Position numbers and translations under genes: made by a program. The notes under the pieces were generated by a model. That model had not been told where the DNA came from. It saw only the letters and a program-made list of their open reading frames with translations, and ran no database searches. 64,000 bases of DNA from Phycisphaerales bacterium (GTDB taxonomy: Bacteria > Planctomycetota > Phycisphaerae > Sedimentisphaerales > Anaerobacaceae), in the NCBI GenBank assembly GCA_020352515.1, contig CP070678.1, positions 5,451,660-5,515,659 on the forward strand, in the 5' to 3' direction. Shown piece after piece: positions 25,218 through 41,100 of this stretch (positions are counted from its first letter, which is position 1; every line of letters begins with the position of its first letter).

Positions 25218-25298
25218 GTACTGGGCGTGTGGAGGCTCCGTTTGCCCGCATGATGGGTGAGGGCCACGGCCGGCACGAGACTTATGGAGGTCAATTCG

Positions 25299-27149
25299 AT
25301 GAAGACAAAACTCACGTCGCTTATAGCGATTGTTATTTTGACTATAGCCGTTTATTTGTCCGCGGCGCACGCGGCGCGGTCGCGGTCCGGGACCGATGGC
25401 CCCATAGCGGATGTCCCGGCCGGCGTGAAGGTGATCGGCAACATCGCCTATCGGCCGGGTCCGAGCGGTGCGTGGCGGCTTGACTTGGCCATGCCCGAAG
25501 AGCGAGGTGAAAAGCCCATACCGGCGATAGTCTTCGTACACGGGGGCGGCTGGCGGAGCGGCGACAAGCGAAGGCCCAATTTCCTCCGCCCGACGCTCGA
25601 GTTCGCCGCGAAAGGCTACGTGTGCATAACCGTCAATTACAGGCTACTGGGCGAAGCGCCGATGCCGGCGTGTATCGAAGACGTCAAGTGCGCCGTTCGC
25701 TGGCTTCGCGCCCACGCCGCCGAATACAACGTCGATCCCAACCACATCGGGGCCTACGGCAACTCCGCCGGCGCCCACCTCGTGGCAATGCTCGGTCTCT
25801 GTCCACCCTCGGCCGGTCTCGAAGGCGACGGGCCCTGGCTGCAGTATTCGAGCATGGTCCAGGCGGTCGTTTGCAGCGCCACACCCGCCAGCTTCCTGAG
25901 CCCGATGAACAGCAGGCAGAAGCAGCAGCCCGCCCGCACCGGCGCCGCCGCCCGCCTCCGCGCGCTGTCCGAAGAGATGCGAAGGAGGATGTCCCCAATC
26001 ACGTACGTGACCGCCGATGCCCCGCCTTTCCTGGTCATCCACGACGCATCGGACCGGCTCGTGGCGGTCCGGCAGGCCGATGAATTTGTCAAGGCCCTGC
26101 GCCGGGCCGGGGCCAAGGACGTCACCTACATGCGCTACGACAACGGCACCGGCCACGGCGTGTTCTTGAAGAACATCCAGGAAACCGGCCCCGCAAGAGA
26201 AGAATTCTTCCAGCGAACCCTGAAGAACAAGACGAAGACAAGCTCCAGGCCGGCCGTCCCGGATAAAGAAGCTGCCGCCGAAACCCCGCCCAGCAGGCCG
26301 CGGCCGCGCGCGCCTTTTCCCCCCGGCACAAAGATCAAGCGTGACATCGTCTATGCCACGGTGGGCGACCGTAAGCTGCTTTTGGACCTCTACGTGCCGC
26401 CGACCGACGCAAAGCCCATGCCCGTCATAGTCTGGGTGCACGGCGGCGGCTGGCGAGGAGGAAGCAAGGGATCGGGCGGGATGGCGCTGCCCATGCTCGG
26501 CAGAGGCTTTGCCGTCGTTGACGTCGGCTACCGGCTCAGCGGCGAGGCCATCTTCCCCGCGCAGGTCCAGGACTGCAAGGCCGCCGTCCGCTGGGTCCGG
26601 GCCAACGCCAAGAAGTACGGCCTCGACGCCGACCGCATAGGCGCCTGGGGAAGCTCGGCAGGGGGGCATCTTGTCGCCCTGCTGGGAACCGCCGGTGACG
26701 TGAAAGAATTCGACACCGATGCCAATCCCGAATACTCCAGCGCCGTGCAGGCGGTCTGCGACTGGTTCGGACCGACCGATTTCCTGAAGATGGACGAGCA
26801 CTCCCTCGAAGGCGCCCGCCTGATTCACAACGCCCCCGGCTCGCCCGAGTCCCTGCTCGTGGGAGGGCCCATTCAGAAAGAGCCCTACCGCACAATGGCG
26901 GTCAAGGCCAACCCGATCACGTACGTAACCAAAAACGACCCGCCGTTTCTTATCATGCACGGCGACAAAGACATGCTCGTACCTCTTCATCAGAGCCGGT
27001 TACTCTACGACGCCCTGAAGAAAGCCGGCGTCGATGCGACCCTGCATGTCGTTGAAGGCGCTGGACACGGCCTGCGCAACGGCCGACAAAGCACCCACGA
27101 ACTCGTCGAAATAGTCGCCGACTTCTTTGAAAGCAATTTGACGCGTTAA
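25299..27149 (+). CDS. Secreted tandem alpha/beta-hydrolase (esterase) with two BD-FAE-like domains
   Basis: 616 residues from the ATG at 25299 (GGAGG upstream); MKTKLTSLIAIVILTIAVYLSAAHA is a signal peptide. Two homologous hydrolase domains follow. Domain 1 (~45-315) has VFVHGGGWRSGDKR and GAYGNSAGAHL; domain 2 (~345-612) has VWVHGGGWRGGSKG and GAWGSSAGGHL. HGGG is the oxyanion loop and GxSxG holds the nucleophile (S ~155 and ~453). DASDRLV/GTGHGVF and DKDMLV/GAGHGL supply the acid and histidine. A Pro/Arg-rich linker (~318-345) joins them. Relatives are esterases that remove acyl or feruloyl groups from polysaccharides. Both domains look intact. Confidence 0.92.
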   Translation: MKTKLTSLIAIVILTIAVYLSAAHAARSRSGTDGPIADVPAGVKVIGNIAYRPGPSGAWRLDLAMPEERGEKPIPAIVFVHGGGWRSGDKRRPNFLRPTLEFAAKGYVCITVNYRLLGEAPMPACIEDVKCAVRWLRAHAAEYNVDPNHIGAYGNSAGAHLVAMLGLCPPSAGLEGDGPWLQYSSMVQAVVCSATPASFLSPMNSRQKQQPARTGAAARLRALSEEMRRRMSPITYVTADAPPFLVIHDASDRLVAVRQADEFVKALRRAGAKDVTYMRYDNGTGHGVFLKNIQETGPAREEFFQRTLKNKTKTSSRPAVPDKEAAAETPPSRPRPRAPFPPGTKIKRDIVYATVGDRKLLLDLYVPPTDAKPMPVIVWVHGGGWRGGSKGSGGMALPMLGRGFAVVDVGYRLSGEAIFPAQVQDCKAAVRWVRANAKKYGLDADRIGAWGSSAGGHLVALLGTAGDVKEFDTDANPEYSSAVQAVCDWFGPTDFLKMDEHSLEGARLIHNAPGSPESLLVGGPIQKEPYRTMAVKANPITYVTKNDPPFLIMHGDKDMLVPLHQSRLLYDALKKAGVDATLHVVEGAGHGLRNGRQSTHELVEIVADFFESNLTR

Positions 27150-28002: not shown

Positions 28003-30906
28003 ATGCCTGACATATATACCGCTGCCGGAGTCCTTCTGGAGCACGTCCTTGACTTGGATGGTGGGGTTAGTCACGATTCCGACCCAAGGACATGTGAGTA
28101 TACCCACTTTGACCTTTCCACAGAACAGTTGGGCAGAACGAGTCGATACAACTGTTGGGGGTTTACCTTCCTGCCAAGACGTTATTGGATCAACAGCGAT
28201 ACCGACGTGGACAACATCCTGAGGGATAATTGTGATCCGGTTCCTGACGGCTCTGTCCGCCCGGGTGACGTTATCCGATATCGAAACAGCTCAGACGTCA
28301 CCACGCACACCGGTCGTGTCTGGCAGACCGACGGCGCAGGCCATGCGACCTTGATTCGCAGCAAGTGGGGGGGATGGGCCGAATATATACACCCCCCTCT
28401 TGGCGGAAGCCCCGAACCCGTGCCGTCCAGCTACGGCACCAACCTGGCCTATTTCCGCCAGAAGGCCCCGTTGCTCGGTGTCGCCGACCTGTGGTTGCAG
28501 GACTCTCCGGCAGATTCCGGAGAGCAGTTCACGGAAACCCCTTATTGGAATAGCCCTGATATTGTCGTCGATGCGCCGCCTTACGATGGAGTCCCTGATT
28601 CGAATGCCGCCTTCGGTGAGACGAATCGCGTTTGGGCTGTCGTTCGAAATCGAGGTGACCAGGCAGTCTCCGGCGTGTACGTTCGTTATTACTGGGCCGA
28701 GCCCGCCTCTGGGGCAGCACCTTCAAACTGGCATCTCATTGCGCCAACATCAGGACACCCCAATCCGGCGGGGCCGTTCAGCATCGGCGCCAATTCCAGC
28801 GCCGAAGCCCCCTATGTTGAGTGGAGCACCGCCTCGACCCCCGCACATTTGTCTCTGATGGCGATAGCTTACATAAATGACGACCCCACAGATTCCTCAA
28901 ATCCCGATCCTCTGGTCTATCCCTTCGAAATGCGGTGGGATAACAACATAGCCGTTTGCGAAGCCACTATGCTTGTACAATTGCAGAATCCGGGCATTAA
29001 CTTTAACGATGTCCCCGAGGGCGAGACAACCGTCCGGGCAGCGGTCTTTGCCGTGAGATCTTGCCGCTCGGTCACGCTTGAGATTGTCAGTGGCCCGACT
29101 GGCGGGAGCTTTGGTACACCCCTCGGCACCTCCGTCACGCTCGGTACCGCTGAGCTGTTCAACGCACCCGAGCGTTTTGCGCGTATTTGGCTGTCCTACA
29201 CTGGGACCAATGACGGGGATACGGCCTCGGGTTCGGTGAGGATTCGCTGTAACCAAACCGGGCAAGAGTGGGATATTCCGATCACGGCAAACACCATTGC
29301 CCGCCCTTCGGTGGCGGTTGTGCTGGCACTGGACAAATCCAACAGCATGAATTTCGATTCGGGAATTCCCGGTTACAAGCGGATTGATGTCCTGCATTTT
29401 TCGGCCCCGCCCTTTGTTGATGTTATCCAGGAGGGGAACGCAATCGGCATGGTTAGTTTTGACCATGATGCGTATGATGAAATGCCTGTCACCGGCCCCT
29501 TGGGTCCGCCCGGCGCCATTGACCCCGACCGAGCAACGGCCCGAGGCAATATACTTTCTCACATGCCGAATCCGGAAGGGTGGACGTCCATCGGGGACGC
29601 GGTCGAGCTGTCTCATAACCGCCTTGCCCCGGTGAGCGGGTACGACGTCAAGGCAATGATCGTTCTTACCGACGGGCATGAGAATCGCCCCAACTATATC
29701 GCGGATGTTGCCGGCCTCATCAACGAGCGTGTTTATGCGATAGGACTGGGTACAGCCGAGCAAATCCAGCCGACCGCTCTGACAGCATTAACGAATGGAA
29801 CAGGCGGATACCTGCTCATGACGGGCTCCCTCGACACCGACACCTATTTTAGACTCGCCAAATACTACCTCCAGATACTCGCAGGCGTGACCAATCACGA
29901 TATCGTCCTGGACCCCGAGGGCTACGTCGCACCGGGTCAAACACACCGTGTTTCATTCGACCTCAACGAAACCGACATCAGCACCGATATCATTCTGTTG
30001 AGCCCGGCTCCATACGTATTCAAGTTTCTCGTCGAAACGCCGGCGGGCCAAATCATTGATCCGAGTCTTGCCGCCGCTACTCCTGGTGCTCTGTTTGTGC
30101 CAGGCAGCAACGTACATTACTACAGGATGTCACTTCCTGTTCCCGTGGGTGCTGGTGCCGCCGGCTCCGGATTGTGGCACGTGCTGCTCTGCATTAACAA
30201 GAAGTACTACGACCGCTACCTCAGGATAGCTGACGCGAAAGGTCTGTATGCGTGTACCACCCACCAGGTTCATGGAATGCGTTACAGCCTGAGCGTCCAT
30301 GCCTATTCTAACATTCGCATGAAAGCGAGAATTCTACAGTCCGGCAATGAGCCTGGAGCTCGGCTGACCCCGCGCGTTCAATTAACCGAATACGGGCTTC
30401 CCGTCGAACGACGCGCCAAGATCGTCTGCGATCTCGAACGCCCGGACAAGACGTTCGTCACACTGGAGTTGTCCGAAGTTGAGCCCGGTGTCTTCCAGAC
30501 CGAAACGCAGGCGATTATGTCTGGTGTCTACCACTTCAACGTACGTGCACAAGGAACGACGCTTCGAGGGCGTCCGTTTAGTCGCCAGCAGGTTCTTACC
30601 GGATCAGTATGGCCGGGCGGGAATGAGCCGCCGCCGAAAACCAGAGATGAGCCCGATGAGCGGCTTTGCAGACTGCTGGCATGTCTCCTCGGCCCCCGAA
30701 CGGTTTCAAAAGAAATGCAGCAGAGACTCTTGAAACTGGGTCTGAACATCGATGCCGTGCGTGAGTGTTTCAAGAAGTACTGCGCGCCAGGTGAGCCGCG
30801 CGGTCAATTGGACGACGGTGGCCTGAAGCTTGTTGAGACGGTCAGGATGCTGGAGCCCCGCGCCAAAGCCCTGCTGAAAGAGCTTATGGACGAAGTGGAG
30901 CCCTGA
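28003..30906 (+). CDS. Large multidomain protein: NlpC/P60-like, CARDB-like and von Willebrand A domains
   Basis: 967 residues; AAGGAGG lies seven bases before the ATG. Residues ~45-150 look like a papain-like NlpC/P60 or CHAP domain: NCWGF (Cys 51), RPGDVIRYRN, then TTHTGRV (His ~102) and GHATLIRSKWG. Residues ~185-290 resemble a CARDB/Ig-like sandwich (VWAVVRNRGDQAVSGVYVRYYW). A vWA domain begins near 435 with the MIDAS motif DKSNS (~444) and continues to VLTDGHEN (~560). A second beta-sandwich follows (~645-880), then a Cys-containing helical tail. There is no N-terminal signal peptide, which is odd for such domains. Base composition appears less GC-rich than neighbours. Function unknown; adhesion or cell-wall-linked role is inference. 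Confidence 0.85.
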   Translation: MPDIYTAAGVLLEHVLDLDGGVSHDSDPRTCEYTHFDLSTEQLGRTSRYNCWGFTFLPRRYWINSDTDVDNILRDNCDPVPDGSVRPGDVIRYRNSSDVTTHTGRVWQTDGAGHATLIRSKWGGWAEYIHPPLGGSPEPVPSSYGTNLAYFRQKAPLLGVADLWLQDSPADSGEQFTETPYWNSPDIVVDAPPYDGVPDSNAAFGETNRVWAVVRNRGDQAVSGVYVRYYWAEPASGAAPSNWHLIAPTSGHPNPAGPFSIGANSSAEAPYVEWSTASTPAHLSLMAIAYINDDPTDSSNPDPLVYPFEMRWDNNIAVCEATMLVQLQNPGINFNDVPEGETTVRAAVFAVRSCRSVTLEIVSGPTGGSFGTPLGTSVTLGTAELFNAPERFARIWLSYTGTNDGDTASGSVRIRCNQTGQEWDIPITANTIARPSVAVVLALDKSNSMNFDSGIPGYKRIDVLHFSAPPFVDVIQEGNAIGMVSFDHDAYDEMPVTGPLGPPGAIDPDRATARGNILSHMPNPEGWTSIGDAVELSHNRLAPVSGYDVKAMIVLTDGHENRPNYIADVAGLINERVYAIGLGTAEQIQPTALTALTNGTGGYLLMTGSLDTDTYFRLAKYYLQILAGVTNHDIVLDPEGYVAPGQTHRVSFDLNETDISTDIILLSPAPYVFKFLVETPAGQIIDPSLAAATPGALFVPGSNVHYYRMSLPVPVGAGAAGSGLWHVLLCINKKYYDRYLRIADAKGLYACTTHQVHGMRYSLSVHAYSNIRMKARILQSGNEPGARLTPRVQLTEYGLPVERRAKIVCDLERPDKTFVTLELSEVEPGVFQTETQAIMSGVYHFNVRAQGTTLRGRPFSRQQVLTGSVWPGGNEPPPKTRDEPDERLCRLLACLLGPRTVSKEMQQRLLKLGLNIDAVRECFKKYCAPGEPRGQLDDGGLKLVETVRMLEPRAKALLKELMDEVEP

Positions 30907-33374: not shown

Positions 33375-34928
33375 CTAAAGCTCGGCGAGCCAGCTCTCAG
33401 CCCAGAGCGCCAGGTCGGCGAAGTTGACCAGGTTGTTGTTGTCGAGGTCGCCCCGCTTGCGGTGTTCTATGATCACGATGGCTTCACCGCGGGCGGCGCC
33501 GTTTTCGTCCCCGTCGATGGGAAGTCCGCTCGCCAGGCCGTATGCCGAATCGCCGATTACTATCGTGTATCTGTCGTGCAAGAGCCGCTGCTTGAAGGTT
33601 ATCCTCATTATCTCTGAGCCGCTGCCGGCCGCCGCAAAGCCCACCAACGCGTTGTCCTGGTCTATTACGGTAACATCGTCGGCCTCGAAAACAACGGCCT
33701 CGCTCCAAAGTATCCGCAGCAGCTTGAGCCCTGAAGCGCCCGTGTGCACGTCATCGTCCGCTGCACGCGGCTCCACCATCAGAATCTTCGGCCCGGGCGG
33801 CGGACATTCTCCCGCAAAATCCACGCTGACGCCCGCCATCGCGGCATAACACGAATTGTCGTAGGTATGCCCGTTGCACCCGCAGACCGGCTCCCAGATA
33901 TCGGGACACGCTTCCGGCAGCTCGCTGCACAGTCCCTCCCCGCCGCAGTCGCCCGGCTCCTTCCGGCAGTAGTACACGCCGCCGCAGTCAATGTTGTTCG
34001 TGCATATCACCGGGCACGGACCCTCGGCCCCGACATTGACACCGGCCATTGCCGCGCTGCATGCGTTTGCATAGGTCACCCCGTCGCAGCCGCATACCGG
34101 GTCCCAAAGTGGAGGACACAGCTCGGGACGCTCCCGGCACAGCCCCCTCGAATCACATGCGCCCGGTTCCTTCCGACAATAGAAATTCGGATCGCAGGCG
34201 TTGTTGTCCGTGCAGAATGTCTGGATGCACACACCCTTGTAATCCGTGTTGACGCCCTCCATGGCCGCAAAGCAAGAATTCTGATAGGTCCGCCCATCGC
34301 ACCCGCATATCGGGTCCCAAACCTCGGGACATATCTCCGGGCGGGCGGCGCACAGTCCCGTCCCGTCGCAATCACCATCATTCTTTCGGCAGAAGTACCC
34401 TCCATCGCAATCGTTGTTGTCCCGGCACGGTGTCACGCAGGGCCCCGCATGGTCCACGCTCACACCGGCCCTGGCGGCGTAGCAGGCGTTCGAGTAAGTT
34501 CGCCCGTCGCACCCGCAGACAGGGGCCTGTATATCCTGACAACGAGTCGGCCGTTCAAAGCACTGGCCCTTGCCGTCGCAGTCGCCCGGTGCTTTCAGGC
34601 AGTAGTAGCCGGGGCCGCAGCCGCTGGTGTTCCAGCAGGGTGGCGGCTTGCACTGGCCGCCGTATAGAACGTTCACGCCCGCTGCCGCCGCCTCGCAATC
34701 GTTCCCGTAAGTCCGGCCGTCACAGCCGCACACGGGAGCCCATACATCCGGGCATATCGTCGGCCGCACCGCACACTCGCCTTTGCTGTCGCAGCCTCCC
34801 GGCGCCTTCCTGCAGTAGTAGCCCTCCGGGCAATCCTGGTTCGACGTGCATGCTCCGGCCCCCCGCACGGTCGGAGCTACGATAAATGGCGCTCCCAATG
34901 CGAGCAGCATGAATAATCGCCTGAACAT
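33375..34928 (-). CDS. Secreted protein with five Kazal-like repeats and a dockerin-like end
   Basis: 517 residues; GGGAGG precedes the ATG and the first ~25 residues are a signal peptide. Five tandem units of ~73 residues follow (from ~27 to ~380), each made of a Cys-rich half (C..N.DC..GYYCRK.PG.CD..G.C) and a Kazal-like half (C.....PVCGCDGRTY.N.C.A...GV....G.C). Kazal domains act as tight serine-protease inhibitors through a loop before CGCDGxTY. Residues ~385-485 form a beta-sandwich (ILMVEPRAADDDVHTG...), and GDLDNNNLVNFADL..WAESWL is a single dockerin-like F-hand at the C-terminus. Multi-Kazal architecture is uncommon in bacteria; targets could be host, prey or own proteases. Confidence 0.9.
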   Translation of the reverse strand: MFRRLFMLLALGAPFIVAPTVRGAGACTSNQDCPEGYYCRKAPGGCDSKGECAVRPTICPDVWAPVCGCDGRTYGNDCEAAAAGVNVLYGGQCKPPPCWNTSGCGPGYYCLKAPGDCDGKGQCFERPTRCQDIQAPVCGCDGRTYSNACYAARAGVSVDHAGPCVTPCRDNNDCDGGYFCRKNDGDCDGTGLCAARPEICPEVWDPICGCDGRTYQNSCFAAMEGVNTDYKGVCIQTFCTDNNACDPNFYCRKEPGACDSRGLCRERPELCPPLWDPVCGCDGVTYANACSAAMAGVNVGAEGPCPVICTNNIDCGGVYYCRKEPGDCGGEGLCSELPEACPDIWEPVCGCNGHTYDNSCYAAMAGVSVDFAGECPPPGPKILMVEPRAADDDVHTGASGLKLLRILWSEAVVFEADDVTVIDQDNALVGFAAAGSGSEIMRITFKQRLLHDRYTIVIGDSAYGLASGLPIDGDENGAARGEAIVIIEHRKRGDLDNNNLVNFADLALWAESWLAEL

Positions 34929-39975: not shown

Positions 39976-41100
39976 ATGGCACAATCGACAACCGCATACG
40001 TGGGGCTCGGCTCGAACCTTGGCGACCGTGCCCGCTACATCGCCGATGCCGTCCGGATGCTTTCCGAACAGCCTGCTTTACGGTCCGTGGAAACAGGCGA
40101 CGTTCTGGAAACCAAGCCCCTCGGCCGCGGCGATCACCACCCCTATCTCAACGCCGTCGCCCGGGTCCGGACCACGCTTGCCCCCGAAGACCTGCTCCGA
40201 ACGCTCCAGAGAATCGAAAAAGGGCTCGGCAGGACACGCCCGGAAAAATGGGCGCCCCGAACCATCGACCTCGATCTCCTTCTTTTCGGCGAAGATATTA
40301 TCGACCTGCCCCACCTGAAAGTCCCGCACCCGCGGATGCACCTGAGGTCCTTCGTATTAATAGGTCTCTGCCGGCTTGACCCAACCCTGCGCCATCCGGT
40401 TCTTGAGGCCACGGTCCGCGAGTTGGCCGAAAGGCTCAACGGCGGGGATTTCGCGCTCGACGCCCGGGTCCCGCAGCTCGTCAGCATCGCAGGCAACATC
40501 GGCGCCGGCAAAACAACGCTCGCAAATAAGCTCTCCGCCCGCTTCGGCTGCCCGCTCCTGCTCGAACCGTATGACACCAATCCCTTCATGCCCGACGTGT
40601 ACGCCGGTCGAAAGGAGCTTGCTCTCGATTCCCAGTTGTACTTCCTTACCAGCCGAATCGACCAGTTAAGCCCCGACTCACTCTCGGCGGGGCAAATCGT
40701 CCTGACCGACTACGTGTTTGACAAGGAGATGATTTACGCGCGCCGGCTGCTCGATGAGCGACAGCTCGAGCTGTACGAGAAAACCTATGCGCCACTCGCC
40801 GCAAGAGTTGCTGAGCCCGTCCTCGTACTGTATCTGCGTGATTCGGCCGAAGAATGCCTCCAGAGAATTCACGACCGCAACCGCCCCTACGAGCAGCAAA
40901 TTACCCTCGATTTCCTCAAGGACCTCGCCGGCGACTATGAAACCCTCTTTGACAACTGGAAAAACTGTCCCGTTATCCGCTTGAACACGCCGAATCTTGA
41001 TTACGGCGACGGCAATACCATCGCGCGTCTGGCCGACCATCTAAGACACTATCTCTCCACCGAATCCGTTGCTTGTTCGTCCCCGCAGGTCAAGAGTTGA
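39976..41100 (+). CDS. folK: Fusion of HPPK (FolK) and deoxynucleoside kinase
   Basis: 374 residues. Residues 1-160 are 6-hydroxymethyl-7,8-dihydropterin pyrophosphokinase: YVGLGSNLGDR, ETKPLG and the signature PRTIDLDLLLFG (~94-105). It transfers pyrophosphate from ATP in folate synthesis. Residues ~167-365 form a P-loop kinase of the deoxynucleoside kinase group: GNIGAGKT (173-180), EPYDTNPF, QLYFLTSR and the lid RIHDRNRPYEQ. It would phosphorylate deoxynucleosides for salvage. A TTGAAA/TAAATA pair at 39911-39938 may be the promoter. It lies 12 bases before panC. The fusion joins two enzymes that are normally separate. Confidence 0.9.
   Translation: MAQSTTAYVGLGSNLGDRARYIADAVRMLSEQPALRSVETGDVLETKPLGRGDHHPYLNAVARVRTTLAPEDLLRTLQRIEKGLGRTRPEKWAPRTIDLDLLLFGEDIIDLPHLKVPHPRMHLRSFVLIGLCRLDPTLRHPVLEATVRELAERLNGGDFALDARVPQLVSIAGNIGAGKTTLANKLSARFGCPLLLEPYDTNPFMPDVYAGRKELALDSQLYFLTSRIDQLSPDSLSAGQIVLTDYVFDKEMIYARRLLDERQLELYEKTYAPLAARVAEPVLVLYLRDSAEECLQRIHDRNRPYEQQITLDFLKDLAGDYETLFDNWKNCPVIRLNTPNLDYGDGNTIARLADHLRHYLSTESVACSSPQVKS

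Follow-up and report, generated by a model that had tools for sequence, protein, structure and literature searches.

The window in this work is a stretch of 64,000 nucleotides on contig CP070678.1 of a Phycisphaerales bacterium. On its minus strand, positions 33375–34928 form an intact open reading frame of 517 aa. From its N-terminal end, the protein has a signal peptide, five units with ten cysteines each, an Ig-like domain, and, at the C terminus, a short motif with one loop. The predicted signal peptide (MFRRLFMLLALGAPFIVAPTVRGA, about residues 1–24, 34857–34928) shows a charged start, a hydrophobic core, and small residues preceding unit 1. Units 1 to 5 were mapped, all on the same strand, to 34650–34850, 34437–34637, 34227–34427, 34014–34214, and 33804–34004, respectively. 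Each of them spans 67 residues from the first to the last cysteine with the pattern C-x5-C-x5-C-x6-C-x5-C-x6-C-x7-CGC-x8-C-x14-C, and their starts are spaced by 70 or 71 residues. That is, the five tandem units claimed in the original prediction for exactly this reading frame are present, while the claimed period of about 73 residues is slightly too long. The rest of the protein consists of an Ig-like beta-sandwich domain (about residues 382–488, 33465–33785, minus strand), assigned from AlphaFold2, Foldseek, and the homologous tails at other loci, and the C-terminal motif GDLDNNNLVNFADLALWAESWLAEL (33378–33452, minus strand), possibly a sorting or anchoring end.

The genes nearby are ordinary, i.e., a class I/II aminotransferase, a deaminase, and an FAD oxidoreductase, and among the relatives compared we have found no conserved neighbour or operon partner. 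On the plus strand of the window, three other reading frames are worth recording. One (39976–41100) fuses HPPK (folK, E = 3.2e-36) with a deoxynucleoside kinase (dNK, E = 2.9e-31) and adjoins a pantoate-beta-alanine ligase gene; another (28003–30906) encodes a protein of 967 residues, which begins with a DUF7689-like stretch and also matches, weakly, a von Willebrand A domain (E = 9e-4); the third (25257–27149) carries two tandem BD-FAE-type esterase domains in a single protein.

In the Pfam search, the protein matches Kazal_1 (E = 3.1e-36, far beyond chance) and Kazal_2 (E = 8e-30), each in five stretches, and the Kazal profile score is 123.6 bits against a curated cut-off of 21 (PF00050/PF07648). 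Apart from these five units, no Kazal_1 domain was found in the genome (5.84 Mb). The structure prediction that had been proposed as a check of the fold agrees well with the profiles. For AlphaFold2 we have aligned the units of this gene with those of other bacteria, 110 in total, and the resulting model of unit 1 (67 residues) has a mean pLDDT of 97.9, with all residues above 90. With this model, Foldseek retrieves Kazal inhibitors from the PDB, including 1tgs, 1ovo, LDTI, and silk protease inhibitor 2, at a probability of 1.00, the E-values being modest (best 3.7e-3) because the domain is tiny. The Kazal half of unit 1 superposes on LDTI (2kmo) at 0.7 Å over 36 residues with 50% identity, and gives a TMt of 0.83 against silk protease inhibitor 2 (4hgu). 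Independently, the unit sequence profile picks up ovomucoid, SPI2, LDTI, and agrin in the PDB. Overall, the model and the profiles indicate that the units almost certainly carry the Kazal fold, with its short helix, small antiparallel sheet, and exposed loop from Cys II to Cys III.

With the Kazal family (PF00050/PF07648; peptidase inhibitor family I1), and with LDTI as a member, the units share the fold, the seven-residue loop, the PVCGxDGxTYxNxC core, and the P15′ Asn; they differ from it in lacking Cys V, in the extra cysteine of CGCDG, in the four-cysteine N-terminal half, and in an acidic residue or Pro at P1. Silk protease inhibitor 2 of Galleria (profile E = 9e-12) also has a Kazal core without the I–V pair, and has P2′ Trp, P3′ Asp, P4′ Pro, and P5′ Val in common with the units, although it is a single free domain with neither the N-terminal half nor the CGCDG cysteine.

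The cysteine scheme deserves a closer description. In all five units the classical Cys V is missing and an extra cysteine (C8) stands in CGCDG or CGCNG, and the classical six-cysteine pairing 1–5/2–4/3–6 is absent. This excludes the classical subgroup, but not the Kazal family, because accepted variants (EPI1a and CrSPI-1 domain 1) also drop one pair. We have gathered 327 bacterial units, which come from many phyla and about 92 loci, and C8 is present in 324 of them. An upstream cysteine, 4–13 residues before Cys II, accompanies it in 321 of these 324 units, Bacteroidota units without the N-terminal half included, and in 0 of the 3 units that lack C8. Since the presence of C8 tracks the upstream cysteine, this pattern, which draws on three losses, suggests that a C5–C8 pair stands in for the usual I–V disulfide while II–IV and III–VI are kept. 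A Kazal domain without one disulfide can still be a strong subtilisin inhibitor (PMC1236909).

In plan, the whole unit resembles the follistatin domain (as in follistatin, FSTL1, agrin, and SPARC/hevin), which is likewise a two-part ten-cysteine unit of similar length with the Kazal half last. The unit profile aligns with follistatin over nearly its whole length (E = 4.5e-8), and the whole unit model matches the follistatin domains 2b0u and 5jhw with TMq values of 0.61–0.62 over 75–77 columns (rmsd 4.1–4.5 Å for the best), which exceed those of the Kazal-only matches. Follistatin domains in follistatin are growth-factor binding modules, and many follistatin domains bind rather than inhibit. 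For this reason a structural or binding role stays a live rival to inhibition: the units might make up a stiff, disulfide-rich rod by which the Ig-like end is spaced or displayed, or might bind a surface ligand, with the loop as a relic. On the other hand, the N-terminal half is not recognisable as FOLN, and its cysteine spacing differs from that of follistatin domains. Its profile alone finds no follistatin and nothing convincing in the PDB, and its members match neither Pfam FOLN nor any Pfam family above cut-off; Dickkopf_N, Lustrin, and Myxo_Cys_RPT, which were considered as the known family of this half, all stay below threshold. The likeness of the whole unit may thus be an analogy, and the unit is best called follistatin-like in plan. 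We consider the structural or binding reading rather unlikely. The units are a bacterial variant of a known family; they have a cysteine scheme of their own and a follistatin-like composite build, with a small disulfide-rich N-terminal half in front of a Kazal half.

It is well established for the Kazal family that P3 is the second cysteine of the domain and that P1 stands two residues further on. This naming of the second cysteine can also be found in the literature (PMC1236909). The loop between Cys II and Cys III has seven residues in each of the five units, the length that it also has in ovomucoid and LDTI, and from these two points P1 is assigned as Asp (codon 34746–34748), Asp (34533–34535), Glu (34323–34325), Pro (34110–34112), and Asp (33900–33902) in units 1 to 5, respectively, by homology. 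Therefore, VWAPV and its counterparts, which were originally taken as the P1 region, are the P1′–P5′ residues. The loop geometry is kept across bacteria: 320 of the 327 units have the seven-residue loop, and among these 308 have the P15′ Asn, which all five units of this gene possess, and 284 an aromatic P2′. This supporting Asn holds the loop via the P2 and P1′ carbonyls (PMC3082530).

As for P1 itself, the 320 units with a seven-residue loop have Asp (98), Glu (48), Leu (38), Arg (28), Thr (27), Ala (17), Gln (16), and Pro (12), counts that are somewhat biased since the scan patterns held some loop residues; weighted by locus, Asp and Glu together make up 45%. For most S1 proteases, an acidic residue or Pro makes a poor P1, and unit 4, with its Pro, is probably the likeliest weak inhibitor head. 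The frequent acidic or Pro P1 speaks for the structural or binding role, and the bias of about 45% towards Asp and Glu could mirror a shared non-inhibitory ligand. Nevertheless, an acidic P1 is compatible with inhibition, because domain 2 of CrSPI-1 from horseshoe crab, with Glu at P1, inhibits subtilisin with a Ki of 2.5 nM (PMC3082530). In the same paper, P1 Glu is said to raise the specificity of Kazal inhibitors for subtilisin, and the P1 Glu domains of SPIPm2, a five-domain shrimp protein, are also subtilisin inhibitors (PMC3082530). In addition, the ovomucoid variants Asp18, Glu18, and Pro18 have been solved in complex with a serine protease (1sgd, 1sge, and 2sgp).

It has been described that ten contact positions are hypervariable in Kazal inhibitors (PMC1236909). 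We have compared pairs of units within the same protein with no preselection (19 loci, 126 pairs), and the proportion of differing comparisons is 0.689 at the contact positions versus 0.501 at other variable positions (p = 0.013 overall); within the Kazal half only, the excess has p = 0.0017. P1 is the 15th most variable of 57 sites over all 126 pairs, and the 1st for pairs at least 50% identical, while for pairs at least 60% identical the contact excess is weaker and not significant over the whole unit (p = 0.12; within the Kazal half, p = 0.036). In the N-terminal half, exposed sites are as variable as P1, so exposure probably explains part of the variability. A run with pairs chosen by non-contact identity (P1 rank 1, p about 0.01–0.04) was discarded, as this filter biases the result upward. 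Overall, the variability gives moderate support to the inhibitor reading. Contact positions that outvary the rest of the Kazal half, together with the kept loop length, P15′ Asn, and P2′ aromatic residue, argue against a relic loop in a merely structural or binding module.

Among known inhibitors, CrSPI-1 and SPIPm2 are also multi-headed, with P1 Glu heads that act in the way discussed above. CrSPI-1 also has non-classical cysteines (PMC3082530), but with a different cysteine shift, and both are animal immune proteins in which a follistatin-like N-terminal half is not described. EPI1 of Phytophthora resembles the present protein as a microbial secreted multi-domain Kazal inhibitor, and one disulfide-deficient domain of it is active against both subtilisin and the P69B of plants (PMC1236909). 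It differs in having lost Cys III–VI, not I–V, in its eukaryotic origin, and in its two domains without the ten-cysteine unit.

The last 147 residues are modelled by AlphaFold2 as a beta-sandwich with a moderate mean pLDDT of 76.9 (mostly 85–95 in the strands), and the one-loop motif and helix after the Ig-like domain are poorly modelled. According to Foldseek, the nearest structures of the Ig-like domain are CopC/PcoC-like domains and SbsC. Homologous tails exist at loci L043, L044, L046, L127, and L035–L037, and the end EHRxRxD...N...DLxxxAxxWL is conserved in eight proteins. Since such a tail ends unrelated proteins of the order (L127, L035–L037), it is a shared C-terminal module, which perhaps serves sorting or attachment. 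As a module (33378–33818; L127, L035, L036, and L037), the Ig-like domain plus this end has no covering Pfam family.

In the original prediction the tail was dockerin-like, and the inhibitor would be tethered through it to protect polysaccharidases. What we have found instead is the Ig-like domain plus one Ca-loop-like motif, whereas a type I dockerin (PF00404) has two Ca-binding repeats; the Pfam search detects no dockerin in the tail up to E = 10, and the genome-wide scan gives none here at E ≤ 0.1. The single loop, the 66 weak dockerin-like matches in the genome (E ≤ 0.1), and the two-domain BD-FAE-type esterase gene 6 kb off would fit a dockerin-tethered shield for a polysaccharidase complex. 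However, no cohesin (PF00963) is detected at E ≤ 0.1 in the genome (87.5% complete), a conserved neighbour is lacking among the relatives compared, and the homologous tail also occurs on proteins without a recognised enzyme domain (L035, L127), all of which make such a shield highly improbable. As for the 66 dockerin-type motifs in a genome with no detectable cohesin, either they have a different use or their partners are unrecognised.

The original prediction also described Kazal inhibitors as mainly animal proteins. Kazal units are not confined to animals: among the phyla with loci are Planctomycetota, Myxococcota, Verrucomicrobiota, Bacteroidota, Deltaproteobacteria, Gemmatimonadota, Zixibacteria, and others. 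The distribution of the unit is patchy, both in the phylum sample (11 of 392 genomes) and in the order (6 of 161, one marginal). Close relatives with the homologous tail have 6 (L043), 5 (L044), and 3 (L046) units, and another relative has 9 units and a different end; such freely varying numbers in relatives (3, 5, 5, 6, and 9) are a further point in favour of the structural or binding role. Two loci are unusual. In Saprospiraceae (L081), 14 Kazal halves occur without the N-terminal half, each with a C-[IVL]-D motif ahead of it. A very long reading frame with eight closely similar Kazal units (L045:4432–8763) lies on the chromosome CP070760.1, which is assigned to Candidatus Heimdallarchaeota, and this is either an archaeal protein or a misassigned bin. 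In the open-access literature we have found no paper on bacterial Kazal proteins; the nearest is a paper that mentions in passing that a sponge-associated thaumarchaeon has a Kazal-type inhibitor gene (PMC6697440).

Based on the above analyses, the multi-headed inhibitor already proposed in the original prediction is plausible, and the secreted protein is probably a serine protease inhibitor of the Kazal type, with five heads and the standard mechanism. The loop geometry, the contact variability, and the literature on acidic P1 residues likewise make it fairly likely that the units inhibit serine proteases. The Kazal half would hold the Cys II–Cys III loop in a rigid canonical shape, and P1 would enter the S1 pocket of the protease as a poorly cleaved substrate. 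An acidic P1 would point to subtilisin-like (S8) or Glu/Asp-preferring serine proteases, and not to trypsin-, chymotrypsin-, or elastase-like ones; that S8 proteases are the target seems to us a nearly even call. The likely role would be to shield the cell surface or secreted proteins from the proteases of neighbours, or to control the cell's own S8 proteases.

The latter, a housekeeping sub-case of the inhibitor reading and not an alternative to it, could draw on the S8 peptidases encoded by the genome itself (eight matches, about seven places), some of them on open frames of 1,200–3,500 residues; these peptidases also count in favour of the inhibitor reading as a whole. We regard it as unlikely, since there is no S8 gene among the adjoining genes checked and no conserved neighbour, and since a gene in only about 5 of the 161 genomes of the order fits better to accessory defence. 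More tentatively, the bacterial units may represent a widespread class of their own, made up of multi-headed Kazal inhibitors that are follistatin-like and have C5–C8 in place of I–V and mostly Asp or Glu at P1. Such inhibitors would have diversified head by head into an antiprotease arsenal, directed at subtilisin-like or Glu/Asp-cleaving enzymes of microbial competitors or predators.

To our knowledge, Kazal inhibitors, although they are model proteins, have been studied almost wholly in animals and oomycetes. In the bacterial population described here, the arrays reach 14 heads, the cysteine scheme is shifted, and acidic P1 residues are frequent; its reactive site is predicted residue by residue, so that it is directly testable. 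The bacterial units also bear on the origin of the Kazal and follistatin domains. If active, they would provide bacteria with a standard-mechanism antiprotease shield, and would be a source of subtilisin inhibitors.
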